A stretch of DNA of 40,540 nt from an uncultured Pseudomonadales bacterium (GTDB lineage Bacteria > Pseudomonadota > Gammaproteobacteria > Pseudomonadales > UBA7434): contig CAJQQO010000074.1 of the NCBI GenBank assembly GCA_905480475.1, positions 1 through 40,540 on the forward strand, in the 5' to 3' direction. Of the stretch, positions 4,220-40,540 are shown one piece after another. Numbering within the stretch: the stretch's first letter is position 1; each line of letters starts with the position of its first letter. The notes below the pieces were generated by a model that was given only the letters and a program-made list of their open reading frames with translations, did no database searches and was not told where the DNA came from. Position numbers and translations under genes: made by a program.

Positions 4220-4888
4220 CAATCATTACCTTATGGGTGGATTTATTGTTCTTGGTTTTACTCAATCAGATTGCTTATGGTTACAGCTTCGCCTGCTAGT
4301 AACGCTTCGCTAACAACTCGTTTCTAACAATTCAACTCCAGCCATTCAGCCTTAGATCGCCATATTAACCTTAGCTATTGGATAAATTATCTTAACGCGA
4401 ACAAAGCCTATAGGATTGCATCCCGAATAAAAAGCCTGCTAAACCAAGCAAAGCATCTGACAGCCAGTTAGCCACTCTGCCATTTAAAATCATAGGGCTG
4501 GCGCTTAACTGATTATTTTTCGACCCTTTTGTCAAAATTCGGTAAAAATTATTCATATACGGCCTAGTCGTACTTGCGCCGCCACGCATAGACGCATAGC
4601 ATCCCACCGTTGGCTTTCAGTCAGTTAGCGCATCTATTTACACTCGATGCTCAGCGACAAGCCAAATAATAAAAGGCTGATAGCAAATGCCTATTTTCTG
4701 AATAATGGATGTTTTTACTGATAAATGCATATTGCTGGATTCACAAAAGCTTCAGATAAAACAACAGCGTGCTAGCTACCGGCTTAAGCCATTAGCTAAG
4801 CACGCAAATAGCAACACTTGCTTAAACCAAATTATTTTAAAACTTTAATTAAGTAATTTTATTTCTAACTACAGTGGGGATTTAACAA
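4220..4888. other. Long intergenic region upstream of mscL
   Basis: About 670 bases without a convincing gene. A 71-codon minus-strand ORF (4392-4607) has no ribosome binding site and no family character, although its C-terminal half reads like a membrane segment. The mscL side is AT-rich, as expected for a promoter (around 4815-4870). A large hairpin lies at 4767-4805. Nothing else is recognised. Confidence 0.35.
4767..4805 (+). promoter_or_regulatory. Stem-loop upstream of mscL
   Basis: GCGTGCTAGCT pairs with AGCTAAGCACGC across a loop that itself contains the palindrome GGCTTAAGCC. One base bulges. It ends 84 bases before the mscL ATG. No T-run follows, so a simple terminator is unlikely. 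It may be a leader structure or a protein-binding dyad. Confidence 0.3.
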
Positions 4889-5308
4889 ATGAGTATGATG
4901 AGCGAATTTAAAGACTTTGCAATGCGCGGAAACGTGGTTGATATGGCCGTTGGTATTATCATTGGCGCCGCATTCGGCAAAATTGTTTCTGCCTTTGTTG
5001 GCGGTATAGTAATGCCACCATTAGGTTTATTAATTGGCGGAGTTGATTTCACTGATTTAGCAGTTACCTTACAAGCCGCTACCGAATCAGCCGAAGCCGT
5101 TACCATCAAATACGGCGCATTTTTGCAAACCGTTTTTGACTTTTTAATTGTTGCCTTCGCTATCTTTATGGTCATTAAAGCCATGAATAGCATGAAGCAA
5201 GAAGAAGAAGCGCCTGCTGCAGAGCCTACTACTCAAGAATGCCCTAAATGCATTTCTGAAATTTCAATTAAGGCTAGCCGCTGTCCAAACTGTACTTCCG
5301 AAGTCTAG
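4889..5308 (+). CDS. mscL: Large-conductance mechanosensitive channel with C-terminal zinc ribbon
   Basis: MscL is a homopentameric inner-membrane channel that opens under membrane tension and releases solutes on hypo-osmotic shock. Residues 1-100 match the family very well: [27 protein letters not shown] at the N-terminus and TM1, the glycine-rich pore helix, a short periplasmic loop, then TM2 (about 77-98). The usual C-terminal helix bundle after MKQEEE is replaced by a short acidic linker and a CPKC-(10)-CPNC pair (Cys118, 121, 132, 135) that looks like a small zinc ribbon. GGGGA eight bases before the ATG supports the start. The gene stands alone and is followed by a strong terminator. 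Confidence 0.96.
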
Positions 5309-5317
5309 TTTCGCAGC

Positions 5318-5387
5318 TAGCATCGAAGTTCGCTTCGATGCTACAAGCTAAAACAAAAAAGGGGACATATTTTGTGCCCTTTTTTTT
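5318..5387 (+). terminator. Tandem hairpins and intrinsic terminator of mscL
   Basis: Ten bases after the mscL stop there is an 11-bp perfect stem (TAGCATCGAAG, 5318-5328, pairing with 5333-5343) closed by a stable TTCG tetraloop but lacking a T-run. It is followed by a second hairpin in which AAAAAAGGG pairs with CCCTTTTTT (5355-5382), ending in a run of eight T. The second is a classic rho-independent terminator. The first may protect the 3' end. Confidence 0.85.
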
Positions 5388-5717
5388 ATTGCTCAAACTT
5401 ACCACCACCACTTTGCTCTGCTTAATACCCCTTAGCTAGGCAGTCACAAACCACTCTCTATTTCTTATCGCTTGCTTACCATCATTCCTTATCAGTAATC
5501 TATTGAAGACCTGCAAGCTACTCAAGACTTACAACATAGCGTTTAGCATCATGTTCATTGTCGATGGCGCATTTGATACCTAATCGCTCACAACATTTAT
5601 AGGATAAGGCAAAGCTGAATCTTTTTGTCAGGTTTTAAGCGGCTAAGGCTATTGGAATGTCAGTCGATGAAGGCTACCTTAACGTCAATCGAAATAAGCA
5701 TCCCACCGGAGAGAATC
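5388..5717. other. Intergenic DNA before the nitronate monooxygenase gene
   Basis: About 330 bases between the mscL terminator and the next start codon. The reading frame of the downstream gene stays open back to 5625, but family alignment and the ribosome binding site place the true start at 5718. No promoter can be assigned with confidence and no other gene is seen. Confidence 0.35.
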
Positions 5718-6839
5718 ATGCAAACCAAATTATGTAAACAACTGGGCGTAGATGTACCCATTTTCGCCTTTACTCATTGTCGCGATGTGGTGGTTGAAGT
5801 GAGCAAAGCCGGTGGTATTGGCGTGTTGGGCGCTGTGGGTTTCTCGCCAGCGCAACTGAAAGAAGAGCTCGATTGGATTGACGAGCGCATTGGCGATCAT
5901 ATTTATGGCGTGGATACTGCGATTCCACAAAAGTATGAAGGTCAGGGCGAAAGCGATCCCGATAAATTAGTTGAAATGCTGCAAGCGGCAATTCCTGAGC
6001 AGCATCGCCAGTTTGCCGAAAAGCTTTTAAGCGATCACGGCGTACCAGCATGGCCCGAAGGCGATGACGAAGTCACTTTAAGCTTCTCACTCGCACAAGC
6101 ACAACTGTTAGTCGATGAAGCATTAACCCGGCCACAATGTCGCATGATCGTTAACGCACTTGGCACACCACCGCCAGAAATTGTAGAGCAGGTTCATAAG
6201 TCCGGCCGTTTAATTGGCGCACTCGCCGGTCGCTTAAAGCACGGTATCAATCATAAAAAAGCCGGTCTAGATTTTATTGTTTGCCAAGGCTCTGAAGGTG
6301 GCGGTCACGCTGGCGAAGTCACCTCAATGATCTTATGGCCACAAATGGTTGAAGCAGTTGCGCCACTGCCTGTATTAGCGGCAGGCGGTATTGGTAGCGG
6401 CAAACAAATTTTGGCCGCTATGAGTATGGGCGTAGAAGGTGTTTGGTTGGGCTCGATGTGGTTAAACGCAACCGAAGCTGCAGCCGAACCTGCACAACGC
6501 GACTCGTATATGAAAGCCAGTTCAGAGGATACCGTTCGATCGCGTTCATTTACTGGTAAAACAGCACGTATGTTAAAAAATGAATGGACCGAGGCGTGGG
6601 ATCGTGAAGATACGCCTGATCCACTGCCTATGCCTTTACAAGGTTATTTAACCTTTGATGCAACGCGCAGAACGCATCGCTATGCTGGCAGCGGCGAAAC
6701 GCAAAAAGTCGCTTTTAACCCTGTAGGGCAAGTGGTTGGGCAAATTAATCAAGTGGAGTCATGTAAGGATATTATGATGCGCTTAATGACCGAGTATAGC
6801 GAAGCGCTAGATCATATTACGGCAATTACGCCTGAGTAG
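5718..6839 (+). CDS. Nitronate monooxygenase family FMN enzyme
   Basis: This 373-residue TIM-barrel flavoprotein belongs to the nitronate monooxygenase/2-nitropropane dioxygenase group, which uses FMN and O2 to oxidise alkyl nitronates. Visible signatures are HCRDVVVEVSKAGGIGVLGAVGFSP near the start, the FMN-phosphate segments QGSEGGGHAGEV and LAAGGIGSGKQILAAMSMG, and VWLGSMWL. It is longer than the short bacterial enzymes and resembles the variant common in actinobacteria and marine proteobacteria, whose substrates are poorly known. GGAGA just before the ATG at 5718 supports that start. It is monocistronic, converging on a SnoaL-like gene through a shared terminator. Confidence 0.85.
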   Translation: MQTKLCKQLGVDVPIFAFTHCRDVVVEVSKAGGIGVLGAVGFSPAQLKEELDWIDERIGDHIYGVDTAIPQKYEGQGESDPDKLVEMLQAAIPEQHRQFAEKLLSDHGVPAWPEGDDEVTLSFSLAQAQLLVDEALTRPQCRMIVNALGTPPPEIVEQVHKSGRLIGALAGRLKHGINHKKAGLDFIVCQGSEGGGHAGEVTSMILWPQMVEAVAPLPVLAAGGIGSGKQILAAMSMGVEGVWLGSMWLNATEAAAEPAQRDSYMKASSEDTVRSRSFTGKTARMLKNEWTEAWDREDTPDPLPMPLQGYLTFDATRRTHRYAGSGETQKVAFNPVGQVVGQINQVESCKDIMMRLMTEYSEALDHITAITPE

Positions 6840-8241: not shown

Positions 8242-10569
8242 TTAAGCGGCCGTTACACTTGCTGGAACAAATTTATGTAAGGGCGTACCAATAAATTTGT
8301 CACGATGTTTAACGAGTGTCAGCTCATTGGCATATACACCGGTATCCATTCGCTCGCCATTGTCATCATCAAAGCGCATACCTTGGCCATTAGGAATAGC
8401 AACCGTACCCATTTGCATTCGATCATCGTAGGCCAGATCGGCCTCGGCCTGCCCGCCTTCGGTTTTAAGCATGACGCGAACGCCCTCTTCCAAACCCAGT
8501 CGCTGCGCATCTTGCGGATTCATAGTTAAAGCCGTTACCCCTTTACCTTTTGCCCAACGTGGATCGCGTATTGCGCAATTGGCGGTATAAGCGCGACGCG
8601 AACCGGCGACCAAGGCAAACTCATATTCTTTGCTGGTTGTAATCAATGGCGTCAGTTTTTCTAGCTCGTCTAACTCCTCAAACAACTCACCAATCACTAA
8701 CTGCAAACGATTTTCCGGAAAAGGTATCCGCGAAAAACAATCATCATACGATGCAACCGCAACTGTTGCGCCCGATGGTGACGTCAACAAACGATTAAAC
8801 AAATCAGTACCCGCAGTAGGACCTTCAAAACCAGCCGCAGCAACATACTTTGAATGCTTCATCGCAAACACCTGACATAATCCCCAGATTGCGGCAGTGT
8901 TTGCTTTACCTTTGTCGGTATTAACACCTTCGACTGCGGTAACAGCATCATTCGATGGTTTCGCAAGTACAGGCCCAAGCGTTCGATACAAGACATAAGA
9001 AATTGCTTGCTTAATCTTTGGATTAGAAAATACTGCATCAAAAAAGCTAGCTTGGTATTGCTCCATCCCAGCGGCAGCAGCTTGATGCAGTGCATCTAAC
9101 TCGCCATCCTCAAAATAACCTAGCGCTTCAATTAGACGCGCATGGATTTCAGGCTCTGATAAAGTATTCTGCATTGGCTCAAATACTGGCGGACGCATAT
9201 GGAAATAATTATCCGGAAAGTTTCTAGGGAAATAAGTGGCTTCCCATTTTTCATATTGTGACGAGGCCGGTAATACATAATCACATTCGCTTGCGGTTTC
9301 GGTCATTGCAACATCAATTGCAACACTGCATTGTAATGATCGAATCGCTTTACGTAACTTTTTTGCCTCTGATAATGAATGCACCGGATTAGCACTTTCG
9401 ATAATCATTGCCCGTGGTCGCTCTTCACTATCGTTAAGAATTTCTTCGGCAAGAAAGTTACCCGGAAAAAGATCGCTATAAATAGGCGCACCAGTTACTG
9501 GCAAGCGCGGCCGCGTTAGCTCTTTGTAATTATTATCAAGCTCGCCGATTCTATCGTTAGGAAGAATATTAACCAACTGTACTGGCAAGGCTATTGTGCC
9601 CTCGCGGCCAAAGTGACCGGTAATCAAACTCAGTAATAAATTTAGGTAAGACACTAATGTAGAGTGCGGCGCCATTTGTATACCAATATCTTCTTCCAGC
9701 GCAAAGCTTTCTGACTCTGCGATTACTTTGGCGACTTGCTGAATTTGCGCTAAGTCAATACCAGCAAAGTTTGCGTAGTCGGCAACTGAAATGCTTTTAA
9801 ATTTCTCTATTATTAGCTCGTAACCGTTAGTATGTTCTTTTAACCAATCAATGGGTAAGGATTGATGCTGAACTATCTCGGCAATAATTGCAGCCATACA
9901 CCATGCATCACGACCGGGCTTAACCGCCAAATGAATATCTGCATAATCAGTAGTTTCTGTTCGTCGAGGATCGATAACAATTAATTGTCTATTGCTATCT
10001 TTTTTTATTGCTCGTAAAAAGTCTCTGGCTTTATTCATGCCATTACTCATAAAGGGGTTTTTGCCAACAAACATAACGGTTTTCGCATGATCGACTTCCG
10101 GGTGATGCCCCATACCAATCATGCGACTGAACACCCAGGATAATCCGGTTTTTTCTTGCGACAAGGCATTCGCTTTATACTTAATGCCCAATACATTCAT
10201 TAACGAGGCGCCGTATGCCGCACCTAAATGATTACCCTGCCCACCACCTCCGTAATAAAAAATGCGTTCGCCACCGTAAGTCGATTTGATCGATTGCATC
10301 TTCTCAGCAATTTCCGCAATGGCGATATCCCAGCTAATTTCTTCATAACTGCCGTCGGCACGGCGACGCATAGGCGAGTCGATACGAGCAGAATTATTTT
10401 GATAATAATTGAGTCGCGCCGCTTTGTTACAGATATAACCTTGCGACTTGGGATGGGCTTTATCACCACGGACCTTAATAATCTCGCTATCGTTTTCTCC
10501 ACCAACAAGCACCTCAATACCGCAGTTAACAAAACAGAGATTACAGGCAGTTTGCTTCCAATCAGTCAT
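8242..10569 (-). CDS. Molybdopterin-dependent oxidoreductase (formate dehydrogenase-like)
   Basis: This 775-residue bis-molybdopterin enzyme of the DMSO reductase superfamily has an N-terminal 4Fe-4S ligand set at Cys9, Cys12, Cys16 and Cys47. It is followed by the Mo-bis-MGD core with IVIDPRRTETTDYADIHLAVKPGRDAW and SANPVHSLSEA, and by a C-terminal molydopterin-dinucleotide-binding domain with LTMNPQDAQRLGLEEG and VYANELT. No Tat signal is seen, so it should be cytoplasmic. I see no cysteine or in-frame TGA (selenocysteine) where formate dehydrogenases place their Mo ligand, so formate is not assured as substrate. AAGGG precedes the ATG. It lies divergent from an HxlR regulator, its likely controller. 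No electron-transfer subunit is adjacent. Confidence 0.88.
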   Translation of the reverse strand: MTDWKQTACNLCFVNCGIEVLVGGENDSEIIKVRGDKAHPKSQGYICNKAARLNYYQNNSARIDSPMRRRADGSYEEISWDIAIAEIAEKMQSIKSTYGGERIFYYGGGGQGNHLGAAYGASLMNVLGIKYKANALSQEKTGLSWVFSRMIGMGHHPEVDHAKTVMFVGKNPFMSNGMNKARDFLRAIKKDSNRQLIVIDPRRTETTDYADIHLAVKPGRDAWCMAAIIAEIVQHQSLPIDWLKEHTNGYELIIEKFKSISVADYANFAGIDLAQIQQVAKVIAESESFALEEDIGIQMAPHSTLVSYLNLLLSLITGHFGREGTIALPVQLVNILPNDRIGELDNNYKELTRPRLPVTGAPIYSDLFPGNFLAEEILNDSEERPRAMIIESANPVHSLSEAKKLRKAIRSLQCSVAIDVAMTETASECDYVLPASSQYEKWEATYFPRNFPDNYFHMRPPVFEPMQNTLSEPEIHARLIEALGYFEDGELDALHQAAAAGMEQYQASFFDAVFSNPKIKQAISYVLYRTLGPVLAKPSNDAVTAVEGVNTDKGKANTAAIWGLCQVFAMKHSKYVAAAGFEGPTAGTDLFNRLLTSPSGATVAVASYDDCFSRIPFPENRLQLVIGELFEELDELEKLTPLITTSKEYEFALVAGSRRAYTANCAIRDPRWAKGKGVTALTMNPQDAQRLGLEEGVRVMLKTEGGQAEADLAYDDRMQMGTVAIPNGQGMRFDDDNGERMDTGVYANELTLVKHRDKFIGTPLHKFVPASVTAA

Positions 10570-28948: not shown

Positions 28949-30055
28949 ATGAGTACAGAGACAATTTTTTCGGCCGACCTTGCTGGTATTGAGGTAGGCG
29001 AAACCGCGATATCCCACGTTAACGGCGCGGACGGCGAACTTGCTTATCGCGGCGCACCGATTGAAACATTGGTCGATAAACCTTTTTGGCAAGTGGTCTG
29101 GCTAGTGCTGTTTGGTGATTATCCTAATGCCAGTCAAGAAGACGCGCTGCGAATATTTATGGCTAACAACAGCAGCCTTAGCGAACAAGAGTTGGCCATA
29201 CTGAAATTGCTGCCCAATGATTTACACCCTATGTTGATGCTGCAAGCGATGGTGCCGATTATAAATTTAGACGCCGCTGATCGAATCGATGGACTTTCCA
29301 ACGACGCCCATAGCGGCCTTATCATTGCCAGCAAACTACCTTCACTGATCGCTGCCAAGCGCCAGTTTGAATTAGATAGAGACGCTATTGCTGTCGATAT
29401 AAATGAGAGCTTTCATACAAATTTTTTACTGATGTTTAACGACCAAGCGCCTACCGAAAAACAAATTCAAATGCTCGACACCGCACAAATCCTGCAAATG
29501 GAGCACGGCTTTAATGCCTCTACCTTTGCCGGTCGCGTTTGTGCCAGTACGCTTGCGCCGATTCAAAGTGCTATCACTGCATCAATCGCCACACTATACG
29601 GTGAGCTACATGGCGGCGCGGATCAAGCCGCATTGGAAATGGCGCAAGCCATTGGCAAACCAGAACTCGCCGCAGCCTATGTTGACGATTGTTTAGCGAA
29701 AAAAATTAAGATTATGGGCATGGGGCATCGCGAATATAAAGTACTTGATCCGCGTGCAAAAATTCTTAAACCGATGGCGCAGGAACTCTGTGATAGCGGC
29801 GATGCAAAAGCAATCTTCTCCACATTAGTTGCGGTAGAAGATGCCTGTCGCGAAGCCTTTAATAAAAAGGGCAAAGAAATAAGAGCGAATGTCGAGTTTT
29901 ATAAAGGCGCGGTGTTTTATCAGTTAGGCGTTCCATCGCACTACTTTACTAGTTTGTTTGCGATGGCAAGAGTGTACGGTTATATCGCGCACTATTTAGA
30001 GTTTAGCGGCAATAGTCGGTTGATTCGGCCTAAAGCAAGATATGTGGGTAAGTAG
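28949..30055 (+). CDS. Citrate/2-methylcitrate synthase-like enzyme with altered catalytic acid
   Basis: This 368-residue protein has the length of short citrate or 2-methylcitrate synthases, which join oxaloacetate and an acyl-CoA. Family landmarks are ISHVNGADGELAYRG, MEHGFNASTFAGRV (His186), GELHGGAD (His221) and MGMGHREYKVLDPRA (His260). The catalytic base, an aspartate in the usual N-V-D-F-Y/F, is glutamate here (NVEFYKGAVF, Glu316). The GADQ after the His-Gly-Gly also departs from the common GANE. The fold and CoA-binding parts look intact. GGAG before the ATG fixes the start. It stands alone under a divergent LysR gene, with no prp genes nearby, so a specialised acyl-CoA substrate is possible. 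Confidence 0.85.
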   Translation: MSTETIFSADLAGIEVGETAISHVNGADGELAYRGAPIETLVDKPFWQVVWLVLFGDYPNASQEDALRIFMANNSSLSEQELAILKLLPNDLHPMLMLQAMVPIINLDAADRIDGLSNDAHSGLIIASKLPSLIAAKRQFELDRDAIAVDINESFHTNFLLMFNDQAPTEKQIQMLDTAQILQMEHGFNASTFAGRVCASTLAPIQSAITASIATLYGELHGGADQAALEMAQAIGKPELAAAYVDDCLAKKIKIMGMGHREYKVLDPRAKILKPMAQELCDSGDAKAIFSTLVAVEDACREAFNKKGKEIRANVEFYKGAVFYQLGVPSHYFTSLFAMARVYGYIAHYLEFSGNSRLIRPKARYVGK

Positions 30056-34446: not shown

Positions 34447-35187
34447 TTAATCGTAACTAACATCAAATGCGCCGGTAGCTTTTAGCTGACGCTTTTCTGG
34501 CTGACCGTAAACCACTAAATCGCCAGCACCTAATACCCTCCCAGAAATCGAAGCATTGGCGGTCAGTACGATATCAGAACTTCCTTGCGACTCAATATTG
34601 ACATGCTTGCAACGCAGCTTTTCCATATCCAAATCGTTGGCTCCACGTATATCAAGTTTACAGTTATTTGCCGTGCCTCTAACCGAAACATCAGCGCTAC
34701 CGCGCATTGATAATTCAAAGCGGGTACTTTGAATGCCACTAAAACGCGCTTCTTGCGAGCCGCGCAACAAAACCTCTTCTAATTGACTACCCGACAACTC
34801 AATCTTAACGCGCTGATTGGTTCCAAAGCCCTCACTGTTAATTAGCAAGCGACCACCTCGCACCTGATACGTTAACGAATCCAATACCGACTGCGTTGCT
34901 GAAATTTTTATTTTAGCGTCTCTACCACCGCGGTAAATAATCTCGGCCGGCACACGAATATCCAATTTACTATAGTTGGCCAGCGTTCGCTCTTGATCAA
35001 TAACAACTCTATCGCTAAACGCTGAGTTATCATCAGTTTTATTGGACTTATAACTGCCAACATTTAATTGATTAACATTACCTAACTCATCTTGCTCGAT
35101 TAGCTCTAACGCTGCGCATAAACCAGAGCCAACTAACATGATTAGTGGTGCGACCAAGGCCCTGAGTTTTTTTGTTGCTGTTATCAT
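34447..35187 (-). CDS. Exported DUF2807 (GIN-domain) protein
   Basis: This 246-residue protein has a signal peptide (basic MITATKKLR, hydrophobic core, cut near LCA-AL). From about residue 80 it has the DUF2807 putative auto-transporter adhesin-like head domain: YSKLDIRVPAEIIYRG, KISATQSVLDSLTYQVRGGRLLIN, and then rung-like repeats such as LSGSQLEEVLLRGSQEARFSG, MRGSADVSVRGTAN and IRGANDLDMEKL, which form a short beta-helix. ATG 35187 is preferred over an earlier ATG because GGAAAAG lies before it. It follows the OmpA-like gene on the same strand after 231 bases, so it may be a separate transcript or the last member of the surface locus. Confidence 0.87.
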   Translation of the reverse strand: MITATKKLRALVAPLIMLVGSGLCAALELIEQDELGNVNQLNVGSYKSNKTDDNSAFSDRVVIDQERTLANYSKLDIRVPAEIIYRGGRDAKIKISATQSVLDSLTYQVRGGRLLINSEGFGTNQRVKIELSGSQLEEVLLRGSQEARFSGIQSTRFELSMRGSADVSVRGTANNCKLDIRGANDLDMEKLRCKHVNIESQGSSDIVLTANASISGRVLGAGDLVVYGQPEKRQLKATGAFDVSYD

Positions 35188-35418
35188 AATTCTTTTCCGG
35201 TTGAGGCAGATGATTAAGCCCATACTTTGCACCCAGCAAACGTTTTTCGCGCACGAGGTTTAAGCGGGCTTTATATCTGCCTTACACAACCTCCGCCAAA
35301 ATTTTTCTGGCACTACAACGCAATGGGTACAATTTAATTTTTAATATCCTTACTTTTAAACCTTCCGCTACATTCGTGATGCAAAATCTTTTCACTCACG
35401 ATATCTAAACAGTATTAG

Positions 35419-35982
35419 TTACTCGGCAATAATGCTTACACGACGATTCACACCACTATTGGGATTATCACCATCTAGCAATTGTGATTCACCTCGACCT
35501 TGGGCGATAACCCGAGTCGGCTCTACAGAATATTCGTTAACAAAGAAGTTCATAACCGCTCTTGCGCGCTGCTCCGACAAGCTTAGGTTGTAGTTATCAT
35601 CGCCAGCCGCGTCGGTATGCCCTTCTAATGTAAAGGCTAACTCTGCTAGCTCATTTGATTGCAGTGCTTCGCCTACAGGACTTAACTGCGCCTTGGCGGC
35701 GGCGGTTAGCTTGGCAGAATCAAAATCAAAATAAACCTCAAGTGATAAACCACGCGGTGCAGACGTTTGCGCAGCTAGTGATTCTGCCGGTTGATTTTTT
35801 AATCGAATACCGCGAGTCAGTGGCTGACCGCTAACACCGTTTGGCGACAATAAATTAATCACCTGCTCTTTGCTCACCTCTTTACCTAAGTGAACGGTAT
35901 CGGCTGACTCAGCGATAGCAAGCGTGCTTAGTGCACAGCAAGTGCTTAATGCGATGGCTTTGATTAATGCTTTCATGTTCAT
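35419..35982 (-). CDS. OmpA-family periplasmic or outer-membrane protein
   Basis: This 187-residue protein has a signal peptide (cut near IA-ESADTV), a linker of about 70 residues including LSPNGVSGQPLTRGIRLK, and an OmpA C-terminal peptidoglycan-binding domain: EVYFDFDSAKLTAAAKAQL, LEGHTDAAGDDNYNLSLSEQRARAV (Asp binding diaminopimelate) and GVNRRVSII (Arg). No beta-barrel or lipobox is seen, so it is a soluble periplasmic protein that binds the wall. GGAGAA before the ATG is a strong site. It follows the two-cysteine protein gene by 79 bases in the candidate fibre operon and may tie an assembly machine to peptidoglycan. Confidence 0.92.
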   Translation of the reverse strand: MNMKALIKAIALSTCCALSTLAIAESADTVHLGKEVSKEQVINLLSPNGVSGQPLTRGIRLKNQPAESLAAQTSAPRGLSLEVYFDFDSAKLTAAAKAQLSPVGEALQSNELAELAFTLEGHTDAAGDDNYNLSLSEQRARAVMNFFVNEYSVEPTRVIAQGRGESQLLDGDNPNSGVNRRVSIIAE

Positions 35983-38477: not shown

Positions 38478-38771
38478 TTAGTCAGTAACTGAACCAATGT
38501 TGACTTCATTTTTGTTAGCGATACCGGTGTTTTTCTGGATTACCGCACCGGTTTTAACGTTGATTTTTACGTCGCCGCCAATGTCAGTGCTTTTGCCAGT
38601 AACCGAACCTAGGTTAGCTTCGTTTTTGTTTGCAATACCTGTGTTGCCTTGCAAAATAACGCCTGTTTTAACGTTGGTTTTAACATCGCCGCCCACGTCT
38701 GCGGCTTGAGCTACGCTCATCCCCATGGCAAGTACGCTAGCAACTGCAGTAGTGATAATGATTTTCTTCAT
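38478..38771 (-). CDS. Exported strand-turn repeat protein, candidate fibre or amyloid subunit
   Basis: This 97-residue protein has a textbook signal peptide (MKKIIITTAVASVLAMG, cut after AQA at 23). The whole mature part is two tandem repeats: residues 25-62 and 63-97, identical at 26 of the first 34 aligned positions. Each reads roughly as D-x-G-G-D-V-K, N-V-K-T-G, an isoleucine strand, N-T-G-I-A-N-K-N-E, N-x-G-S-V-T. The Gly/Asn turns and alternating Val/Ile pattern are typical of beta-solenoid or curlin-like subunits, though the sequence is not that of CsgA. GAGGAG eight bases before ATG 38771 fixes the start; an upstream ATG lies in that same motif. It is first in the operon, before the CsgG-like gene. 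Confidence 0.75.
   Translation of the reverse strand: MKKIIITTAVASVLAMGMSVAQAADVGGDVKTNVKTGVILQGNTGIANKNEANLGSVTGKSTDIGGDVKINVKTGAVIQKNTGIANKNEVNIGSVTD
38481..38699 (-). repeat. Two tandem coding repeats (38 and 35 codons)
   Basis: Codons 25-62 and 63-97 of the exported repeat protein form two consecutive units, aligned without gaps over 34 codons with 26 identities. They cover essentially the whole mature protein. The changes are mostly conservative (V/I, L/I, A/V), which suggests selection for a fixed strand-turn structure. Confidence 0.85.
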
Positions 38772-39253
38772 TGTGATACTCCTCATTTAGTCAATTAATG
38801 TCCTAAAAACGATTAGCAAAGCTCGCATCCATCGCCGGACACTTGTATTAGAAGGCCAACAGCAGCTTTTTGAAACCGATTTTTTTAAAAAACATCGAAA
38901 ATTGTCAAACGTACACTTATTTGTATGAATAAGTGCTTAAAAAGTGAGCATGTGTGTAGAATATGCTTTTGCTAAGTGACTGCAATTGCAGGAAAAATAG
39001 CTGAATATCCCTCTTGCTAAGTGTAAACTTGGTTTTTTATACATTTGCGTCACTATTGTTGCGCGTTAGGCTGATTATTAAGTAAGAGCCTAACTGCTCA
39101 GCCAACAAGCAGACGAAGATAGTTGCCGGTTAAATTGCCAGCGAGATTTGCCGCTTGAACAATTTATGCCGTGCTTTGCCAATATACGGTACAAAGCCTA
39201 TTAACATGACATGGCCTACATGCAGTACATAGCCTATAAAAAGGAACGAAGTT
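38772..39253. promoter_or_regulatory. Divergent control region of the surface operon and sigma gene
   Basis: This 482-base gap separates the minus-strand surface operon from the plus-strand sigma gene. It holds five AAGTG boxes within 110 bases (minus strand at 38914-38918; plus strand at 38931, 38942, 38974 and 39019) and a direct repeat TTGCTAAGTG at 38969-38978 and 39014-39023. A dyad CACTTAT-N8-ATAAGTG lies at 38914-38935. A TTGACA box (38903-38908) reads towards the operon. TTGCTA, 18 bases, TATACA (39014-39043) could be a promoter for the sigma gene. AAGTGTA-N3-TTG occurs in front of both directions. Confidence 0.5.
39065..39103 (+). promoter_or_regulatory. Overlapping alternative hairpins in the sigma gene leader
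   Basis: GTTAGGCT (39065-39072) pairs with AGCCTAAC (39087-39094). The overlapping GGCTGA (39069-39074) pairs with TCAGCC (39098-39103). The two stems cannot form together. If transcription starts upstream, this would be a switchable leader about 150-190 bases before the sigma start codon. Confidence 0.4.
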
Positions 39254-40159
39254 TTGGTTGAAAGCAATTCCAGCGCTATCGATTGGCCAATGTTGGTGTT
39301 TGATCCGCAGTTTATGGCAACACTAGATAAGCTTGCCGCTAGACGCTTTGGCGCTGGCGGGCTAGCCGAAGAAGCGACCACCCATGTCATTGAGTACCTT
39401 TCCGATAACGACTGGGGCAAATGCGCCTCGTTTCAGGGTAAATCCAAACCTTCTACCTTCCTTTATACGCTGGCAAATAATGCGATTGAAGAGTTCTCTC
39501 GCAAGCGTTTTGGCCGCCCTAGGCCACCGGTTTGGCTGCAAGATTTAGGCGAGTTATGGGTAAAACTATGGCGTAGCCTTTGCCTGGAACGCCAGCTATT
39601 ACCTGCACTGGTTGACCGGTTCTCCGACAATGGCTTTCGCGAGCCTGAGCAAGTCACCCAAGCCGCCAAGGTTATCAAAGCCCGTATCCCCAATTGTGGA
39701 CAGAGCTCGATGGATAGCCTTGCAGTTGATGATATTGATGCCGTCAGTGATGCAGCCCAATCGACTACTGAATCCATAGACAATAGTGGTAATGAGAGCG
39801 TCGAGCTGGAGTTTGAAAACCCATTTCACGCCGAATTGATCATGATGGTAAGAGCGGTGGTTGACGATGATATCTGCTGCTCCAGCTTTGCTGACGAGGA
39901 GCTTGATAAAACCGATAGCGTCGCCGGTAACTTATTGAATAATTTAGATAACTTGCGAAACTCGCTAAGTTTGAGTGATGAAGAGCGGGTGATGCTTAAA
40001 ATGATATATGTAGAGGGGTTATCCAAAACCGCCACCTCAAAAGCGCTGGGAATGCAGGCTCATCAAGCCGGTCGTATCGTTAATGACGCACTGGAGCGCA
40101 TTGGTGCCGGAATCCGTACATGCGGTATTGATCTCGAAGAATTGCTGGAGTTGGTGTGA
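39254..40159 (+). CDS. Large ECF-like sigma factor, likely regulator of the surface operon
   Basis: This 301-residue protein has sigma-70 region 2 at about 15-90, with FGAGGLAEEATTHVIEYLSDNDW and the DNA-melting/-10 recognition helix STFLYTLANNAIEEFSRKRFGR, and a region 4 helix-turn-helix near the end: LSLSDEERVMLKMIYVEGLSKTATSKALGMQAHQAGRIVNDAL. Between them lies an unusually long acidic, Ser-rich linker of about 140 residues, making it longer than a typical ECF factor. The start is TTG at 39254, with AAGGA eight to nine bases upstream. Its stop overlaps a tiny ORF and an anti-sigma-like gene follows, so this is a sigma/anti-sigma pair divergent from the surface operon. Confidence 0.78.
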   Translation: MVESNSSAIDWPMLVFDPQFMATLDKLAARRFGAGGLAEEATTHVIEYLSDNDWGKCASFQGKSKPSTFLYTLANNAIEEFSRKRFGRPRPPVWLQDLGELWVKLWRSLCLERQLLPALVDRFSDNGFREPEQVTQAAKVIKARIPNCGQSSMDSLAVDDIDAVSDAAQSTTESIDNSGNESVELEFENPFHAELIMMVRAVVDDDICCSSFADEELDKTDSVAGNLLNNLDNLRNSLSLSDEERVMLKMIYVEGLSKTATSKALGMQAHQAGRIVNDALERIGAGIRTCGIDLEELLELV

Positions 40160-40230
40160 TGTCTGTACAGTTTTGGCATATTGTCCATCTTATAGATTGT
40201 AGTCACTGGTATGGAGTCGAATGCCTATGA
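40159..40230 (+). CDS. 23-codon small ORF coupling sigma and anti-sigma genes
   Basis: Its ATG overlaps the sigma stop (TGATG) and its own TGA overlaps the anti-sigma start (ATGA). The peptide begins MSVQFWHIVHL, is rich in aromatic residues, and has two cysteines and three histidines. It has no family and no ribosome binding site of its own, as expected for translation by coupling. It may be a coupling leader rather than a functional peptide. Confidence 0.4.
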   Translation: MSVQFWHIVHLIDCSHWYGVECL

Positions 40231-40540
40231 AAAATCAATCTAATGAAAAAGAATCAAAGCTGGATAAAGCAGCTGCACTGTTAGCACTGGGGCTTAGCCA
40301 GTCAAAAGCCGATAACGCCACATTTGCCGCCCCGAGCGACGAAGAGCTGGCCGCTATGCTCGAAGGTAAACTCGATACCACTCGCCGCGCCCAAATTATG
40401 GATAGCATGGCGAATGATAGCGAAACCTTTGCGCGCTGGATGGCGCTAGTTGAAACCGCCGATACGTTAGGCCTTGAGAGTTTTGCTCAGGCTGAAGCCG
40501 TAACGACACCCGGCTTTTTTGCCAGCATTGCAGAGTCGTT
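40227..40540 (+). CDS. Anti-sigma-factor-like protein, 3'-truncated by window edge
   Basis: The first 104 residues are visible. After a Lys/Glu-rich start and LDKAAALLALGLSQSKADNA comes PSDEELAAMLEGKLDTTRRAQIMDSMANDSETFARWMAL, the pattern of the small N-terminal helical domain of anti-sigma factors (zf-HC2-like arrangement) but without the zinc-binding Cys/His residues. A membrane segment would be expected further on, outside the window. GGAG ten bases before the ATG at 40227 supports this start; an in-frame ATG at 40221 is an alternative with tighter spacing. It follows the sigma gene by coupling through a tiny ORF, as expected for a co-produced inhibitor. Confidence 0.72.
   Translation, partial: MKNQSNEKESKLDKAAALLALGLSQSKADNATFAAPSDEELAAMLEGKLDTTRRAQIMDSMANDSETFARWMALVETADTLGLESFAQAEAVTTPGFFASIAES

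Follow-up and report, generated by a model that had tools for sequence, protein, structure and literature searches.

A tandem-repeat exported protein encoded beside a CsgG-like lipoprotein: a putative subunit of a curli-related assembly system in Pseudomonadota

The window, that is, the whole stretch of 40,540 nucleotides analysed here, encodes a small exported protein composed of two tandem repeats at the head of a conserved gene cluster that also encodes a CsgG-like lipoprotein. We consider this protein likely to be the structural subunit of a system for CsgG-dependent secretion and assembly that is related to curli yet distinct from it, in what would be an undescribed form of CsgG-type (type VIII) secretion. 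The initial annotation had reported an exported tandem-repeat ORF at 38478-38771 and had suggested an amyloid or beta-solenoid subunit; the ORF was confirmed, with a signal peptide and two repeat units making up the protein. The decisive evidence is the gene neighbourhood, which lies outside 38478-38771 and was not used in that annotation, where neither the strand of the ORF nor the CsgG-like gene downstream of it was given. To our knowledge, only a handful of secreted amyloid systems are understood in bacteria; should the proposal be correct, the unannotated subunit family and its conserved operon would represent an additional one. The features of the region are listed in Table 1.

Table 1. 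Coordinates of the subunit gene, its parts and the neighbouring features in the window
Feature	Coordinates	Strand	Basis or remarks
Repeat subunit gene, 97 aa	38478..38771	minus	ORF, repeat comparison, homologues
Signal peptide MKKIIITTAVASVLAMGMSVAQA	38703..38771	minus	by inspection
Repeat unit 1, 34 aa, ADVGGDVKTNVKTGVILQGNTGIANKNEANLGSV	38601..38702	minus	
Repeat unit 2, 34 aa, TDIGGDVKINVKTGAVIQKNTGIANKNEVNIGSV, 38-residue start-to-start offset	38487..38588	minus	
Hairpin directly 3' of subunit stop codon	38420..38471	minus	folding z-score
Small exported protein, 105 aa	38022..38339	minus	C-terminus CGSVDIGNV...VVIIKGDVINANNKC, two Cys, conserved
CsgG/HfaB-like lipoprotein, 518 aa	36434..37990	minus	PG_binding_1-like aa 289-333, DUF4384 aa 395-470
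Small exported protein, 119 aa	36062..36421	minus	LRCWQxGxLL...CxY motif, conserved in cluster
OmpA-domain protein	35419..35982	minus	Pfam OmpA E 3.2e-21
DUF2807 (GIN, putative autotransporter adhesin head) protein	34447..35232	minus	Pfam E 1.1e-25
ECF-like sigma factor, divergent from cluster	39254..40159	plus	TIGR02937 E 4.9e-7, below cut-off
Next gene after sigma factor, start only (window end)	40221..40538	plus	position

The subunit ORF runs from an ATG at 38771 to a stop codon at 38478-38480. A second in-frame ATG lies upstream at 38786 but shares bases with a Shine-Dalgarno-like sequence, GAGGAG, that is itself placed for 38771, and 38771 is therefore the likely start. Inspection of the N-terminus indicated a Sec-type signal peptide with cleavage between AQA and AD, leaving a mature protein of 74 residues that consists of two units of 35-38 residues each. 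In an ungapped alignment the units are identical at 25 of 34 positions, one fewer than had been claimed; 26 is the number of identities for the whole mature protein at its best offset (maximum 15 and mean 7 in 20,000 composition-preserving shuffles). The DNA of the repeats is identical at 74 of 102 positions; of the codons that differ, 10 are synonymous and 9 non-synonymous. All the turn motifs quoted in the initial annotation were found in both units, and its statement that the protein has no cysteine and no other domain also holds: there are 0 cysteines, and a Pfam and NCBIfam scan of the subunit gave no domain above the curated cut-off. The names SPIN, Pentapeptide_2 and DUF6520 were rejected since their matches were far below the cut-offs and were taken as signal-peptide or composition noise.

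Six genes lie in the same orientation, in the order subunit, Cys-ended protein, CsgG/HfaB-like lipoprotein, small protein, OmpA-domain protein and DUF2807 protein, with the subunit gene first. The family of the 105-residue Cys-ended protein is represented in loci L015, L012, L013, L027, L028, L081-L086, L089 and L090, and this protein is a candidate adaptor, nucleator or cap. Comparison with CsgE and CsgF gave no match to either, and identity with these curli proteins was rejected for want of support. The OmpA-domain protein is a candidate peptidoglycan anchor. The ORF following the divergent sigma factor gene had no family match in Pfam or NCBIfam; from its position its product is possibly an anti-sigma factor. 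In Azospirillum ramasamyi a sigma/zf-HC2 anti-sigma pair is likewise located upstream of the cluster.

The strong hairpin that follows the subunit gene has a z-score of -4.1 in a 98-nt stretch and -7.7 in a longer stretch, and 0 shuffles fold equally well. Hairpins of unrelated sequence occur at the equivalent site in L027 (z -5.3) and L085 (-4.2), with weaker ones in L084 (-3.0) and L030 (-2.0); none was present after the subunit gene in L015 and L081. Predicted sigma-70 promoters and intrinsic terminators were not above chance in the region, and for this reason the hairpin is presented as a structure and not as a proven terminator. It is a candidate partial terminator or mRNA stabiliser; in the window and in several other clusters it would leave more subunit than exporter, as would be expected of a structural protein.

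The 518-residue lipoprotein taken alone had a sub-threshold match to Pfam CsgG (E 0.0033), and its best NCBIfam match was HfaB (E 4.3e-4; 19.6 bits against a cut-off of 300). The relationship was much clearer in profile form. Alignment of ten such CsgG-like proteins with six CsgGs, including that of E. coli, using hhalign gave Prob 93.3 and E 2.8e-7 over 263 columns, where the pairwise E-value refers to one comparison and not to a database. The aligned region extends from the lipobox, through the membrane-hairpin region, to the C-terminal part of CsgG. Judged by this profile alignment the downstream lipoprotein belongs to the CsgG superfamily, and it is a candidate outer-membrane exporter. The lipobox cysteine, Cys19, follows a hydrophobic signal and is invariant in the ten homologues. 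Residues Y51, N55 and F56 of CsgG are those that we take, from established structural work, to form the pore constriction, or eyelet. The segment that corresponds to the constriction loop falls short by 5-12 residues in each of the ten CsgG-like proteins, whereas the six CsgGs all have it at full length. Given the absence of the loop, the mode of export may differ from that of CsgG. The exporter homologues carry a C-terminal peptidoglycan-binding-like segment and mostly also DUF4384. No exporter was found in viral contigs.

The association of the subunit with this lipoprotein was evaluated in 29 loci, comprising those found by an exporter search plus L015, an Acidiferrobacterales metagenome-assembled genome locus that was the single relative found in a scan of genome contigs. 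The window and L015 were known beforehand to have a repeat protein, and the other loci were picked by the exporter alone. L015 has all six genes in identical order, and in its subunit 12 units follow one another, the first spacing being 36 residues and each of the next ten 35. An exported protein with an internal repeat of 33-42 residues was found no more than 2.5 kb upstream of the exporter gene and on the same strand in 16 of the 29 loci. In the other 13 no such protein was seen in the 2.5 kb upstream; contig ends cut some of these loci, and in others the protein may have escaped the repeat test or been missed owing to gene orientation. Among ORFs with a signal-peptide-like start, 25 of 82 near the exporter and 18 of 566 elsewhere in the loci carried such a repeat (Fisher p 1e-13); several of the 18 distant ORFs are antisense shadows, and a few of the near matches are other repeat proteins, for example one with Sel1 repeats in L027.

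A profile of the window family, iterated over the 2,104 ORFs of the 29 loci, converged on 25 proteins, nearly all of which adjoin an exporter gene or another member of the family. The same profile matched none of 4,208 control ORFs made by shuffling or reversal; among 693 ORFs of other loci it matched only three paralogues on another contig of the same assembly. The family consensus is GNTNINVNVGNVTQVAVGSGNKATTNIGSVKGSTVGNVKANVVVGKVTNSAAGSGSKAEVNIGS. The initial annotation had proposed a profile search and a count of repeat number across strains; we found two units in most homologues, three in L080 and 12 in L015. It had also named membership of the homologues in a known non-fibrous family as evidence against its idea, and the homologues fall in no annotated Pfam family. 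Several clusters hold two or three tandem subunit genes.

When 399 Pseudomonadota genomes were searched, the exporter profile had matches in 34 (E <= 1e-10). In about 19 of them, one being the genome of the window, the match covers the CsgG part (19/399, or about 5% of the sampled genomes); in the rest it mostly covers the DUF4384 part only. The subunit profile matched 10 genomes, all of them within the 34 exporter-positive genomes, and 0 of the 365 exporter-negative ones. With the seven genomes that had contributed to the profile left aside, the subunit was present in 3 of 27 exporter-positive genomes against 0 of 365 (p 3e-4). The subunit-exporter cluster recurs across many families of Pseudomonadota, with a subunit repeat number of 2 to 12. 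This genetic linkage is what suggests that subunit secretion may depend on a CsgG-family pore.

Plasmids of Azospirillum lipoferum 4B and A. ramasamyi share an exporter homologue, named 'DUF4384 domain-containing protein' in RefSeq, followed by OmpA. In A. lipoferum 4B a 97-aa two-repeat 'hypothetical protein' (WP_044553250.1) is encoded upstream of the exporter homologue. The subunits of the Azospirillum clusters are named only 'hypothetical', and RefSeq gives no function. A literature search that gave little coverage to subscription papers and preprints returned nothing relevant on CsgG with DUF4384 and amyloid or on CsgG-like secretion.

Relatives of the subunit are rare, and 11 same-genus genomes had none. 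The three paralogues mentioned above are 63-65% identical to it and are encoded on contig C96, at 980-1267, 2306-2596 and 5675-5962 (locus L005); the first and third copies are 98% identical in DNA. These genes flank those for a 440-residue barrel protein of autotransporter-like type and for a caspase-like protein with Sel1 repeats, and the contig has no exporter gene. The host assembly resembles a metagenome-assembled genome, being 88% complete with 1.45% contamination in 376 contigs. Two genes of the window, a citrate-synthase-like gene at 28949-30055 and a molybdopterin-oxidoreductase-like gene at 8242-10569, have only about 30% identity to their best same-genus matches. Since these genes match the same-genus genomes so distantly, assignment of the window contig, C74, and of C96 to the host is not certain; the locus itself is unaffected.

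An AlphaFold2 model of the 12-repeat homologue, made from the single sequence, was all-beta with no helix and of moderate confidence (pLDDT 57.7, pTM 0.57); pLDDT was about 60-74 in the final 150 residues. It has three strands per repeat, with strands starting at 288, 323, 358 and 393, a period of 35. The model fits a solenoid with one coil per repeat, without establishing it, and the length of the unit is nearly constant among homologues, as in a solenoid. Foldseek comparison of this model with the PDB ranked a curli subunit from Pontibacter first, at a non-significant E of 0.38 and a probability of 0.04; the remaining entries were mostly beta-solenoid and beta-helix proteins, with FapC at rank 24 and likewise non-significant. 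For the two-repeat window protein, AlphaFold2 with a 13-row alignment gave a model of low confidence (pLDDT 42.6, pTM 0.28), which speaks neither for nor against stacking. The amyloid or beta-solenoid proposal of the initial annotation is partly supported: it gained from an exported, non-curlin protein with units of nearly constant length in variable number, from the adjacent gene of the CsgG family, whose members export curli and, it has been proposed, HfaA and HfaD, and from the all-beta 12-repeat model, but not from the low-confidence two-repeat model or from the PDB comparison. On balance, the subunit probably forms a beta-solenoid polymer.

An alternative is that the subunit passes through a CsgG-like pore yet forms no fibre, and acts together with the OmpA and DUF2807 proteins as a surface cap, adhesin or anchor resembling HfaA or HfaD. 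HfaB is a CsgG homologue upon which the surface proteins HfaA and HfaD depend (PMC6707917). The best NCBIfam match of the exporter is HfaB of the Caulobacter holdfast system HfaABD, though far below cut-off; the domains for peptidoglycan binding, OmpA and GIN point to a complex anchored to the cell, and most subunits have only two repeats. However, the 12 repeats of nearly constant spacing in the syntenic L015 cluster, and the tandem subunit genes of several clusters, are as expected of a polymer. The holdfast cluster is a different one, the subunit has no HfaA or HfaD match in the NCBIfam scan, and a search of the window genome with the HfaD profile gave no match (the Caulobacter positive control was found), so that identity with HfaD was rejected. 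We regard a cap or anchor role as unlikely.

It could also be argued that the protein is a soluble periplasmic or secreted beta-solenoid, with an ice-binding, envelope-stress or ligand-binding function, which adjoins a CsgG-like gene by chance. Beta-solenoids are common among non-fibrous proteins (PMC10192328), and CsgG-domain lipoproteins elsewhere need not be exporters. A chance association is nevertheless difficult to reconcile with a pairing that is conserved across many Pseudomonadota families and exclusive in the 399-genome test, and we consider this explanation improbable.

The proposed system shares with curli a small, Sec-exported, Gly/Asn-rich repeat subunit of variable repeat number that is probably a beta-solenoid, and a CsgG-homologous outer-membrane lipoprotein encoded nearby. 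The differences are several. The curlin motif is about 23 residues long, whereas the unit here has 35-40 residues and reads roughly G[ND]V...V.N.A.G..N.A...IGS[VI]. The small Cys-ended protein has no detected homology to CsgE or CsgF; CsgG has a constriction loop, while the exporter here lacks the loop residues and has peptidoglycan-binding and DUF4384 domains in addition; and OmpA and GIN-domain proteins are linked to the cluster. The curlin repeat PF07012 (X6QXGX2NX10) was absent from the subunit, from 20 family members and from the whole genome (E. coli served as positive control), and hhalign with E. coli CsgA was null. Curlin membership was rejected on these grounds, in agreement with the earlier view that the motif differs from that of CsgA. 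The notion of a divergent true curlin in a degenerate curli operon, which could appeal to the Gly/Asn/Gln-rich repeats with a Q-x-N-x-G stretch that recalls curlin, to the CsgG-family neighbour and to the known occurrence of degenerate and lengthened curlin repeats (PMC10192328), is thereby already largely refuted at the sequence level and is very improbable.

In the Fap system of Pseudomonas, imperfect Asn/Gln/Gly repeats are stacked as beta-solenoid amyloid layers (PMC12822426). Imperfect repeats are common to both systems, and beta-solenoid layers may be, but the Fap exporter is FapF, a trimeric barrel and not a CsgG, and Fap repeats almost invariably number three. Identification with FapC or any other solved structure found no support by sequence, there being no match among PDB chains, which should include FapC. 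A single pseudouridine-synthase match in the sequence search (E 1.7) was taken as chance.

For a structural subunit of a CsgG-dependent system, the following route is envisaged. The subunit would cross the inner membrane by the Sec pathway and then, still unfolded, pass out of the cell through a pore that the CsgG-like lipoprotein would form in the outer membrane. This pore would be tied to peptidoglycan by its own peptidoglycan-binding domain and by the OmpA protein. The Cys-ended 105-residue protein would have a role like that of CsgE, CsgF or CsgB, without sequence relation to them. Outside the cell, each unit of 35-38 residues would become a single beta-solenoid coil, and open-ended two-coil subunits would stack head to tail to give a cell-anchored polymer. 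We lean, though only slightly, towards the fuller picture of a further CsgG-type polymer system in addition to those of curli and the holdfast, scattered through Pseudomonadota, in which an eyelet-less, peptidoglycan-tethered pore would export short repeat subunits, so far named only 'hypothetical', that assemble into a beta-solenoid fibre whose coils are 35-40 residues long. If so, the exporter, in which residues of the gating constriction of CsgG are missing, would provide a test of how unfolded subunits are selected and held by such a pore; subunits of 2, 3 or 12 units would form a natural series for testing the effect of repeat number on fibre assembly. CsgG is widely used as a nanopore, and an eyelet-less relative is for that reason of practical interest.

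Some clusters have further features. In L095 (1984-4344) a truncated exporter gene is followed by that of a 786-residue protein with many divergent repeat copies and then a non-repeat C-terminal region. In L028 a transposase-like gene (4437-5744, 435 aa) is located upstream of three near-identical subunit genes, and the exporter gene (8349-9936) consists of two overlapping ORFs, possibly owing to a frameshift. Near many clusters there are genes for exported, caspase-like proteins of the peptidase C14 type, of which some apparently contain DUF4384, as in L027 (6071-7801), L085 (3536-5365), L030 (3890-5191) and L094 (8075-8818). Beside the cluster in L012 (2569-8333) are genes for a filamentous-haemagglutinin-like protein (1354 aa) and a transporter resembling TpsB (567 aa), which together look like a two-partner secretion pair. 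The genome that contains the window also encodes, on contig C248 (L047, 4773-7730), a second and different CsgG-domain lipoprotein of 401 residues; it is flanked by exported Asn/Ser/Gly-rich proteins of 201 and 348 residues and may mark another CsgG-type secretion locus.
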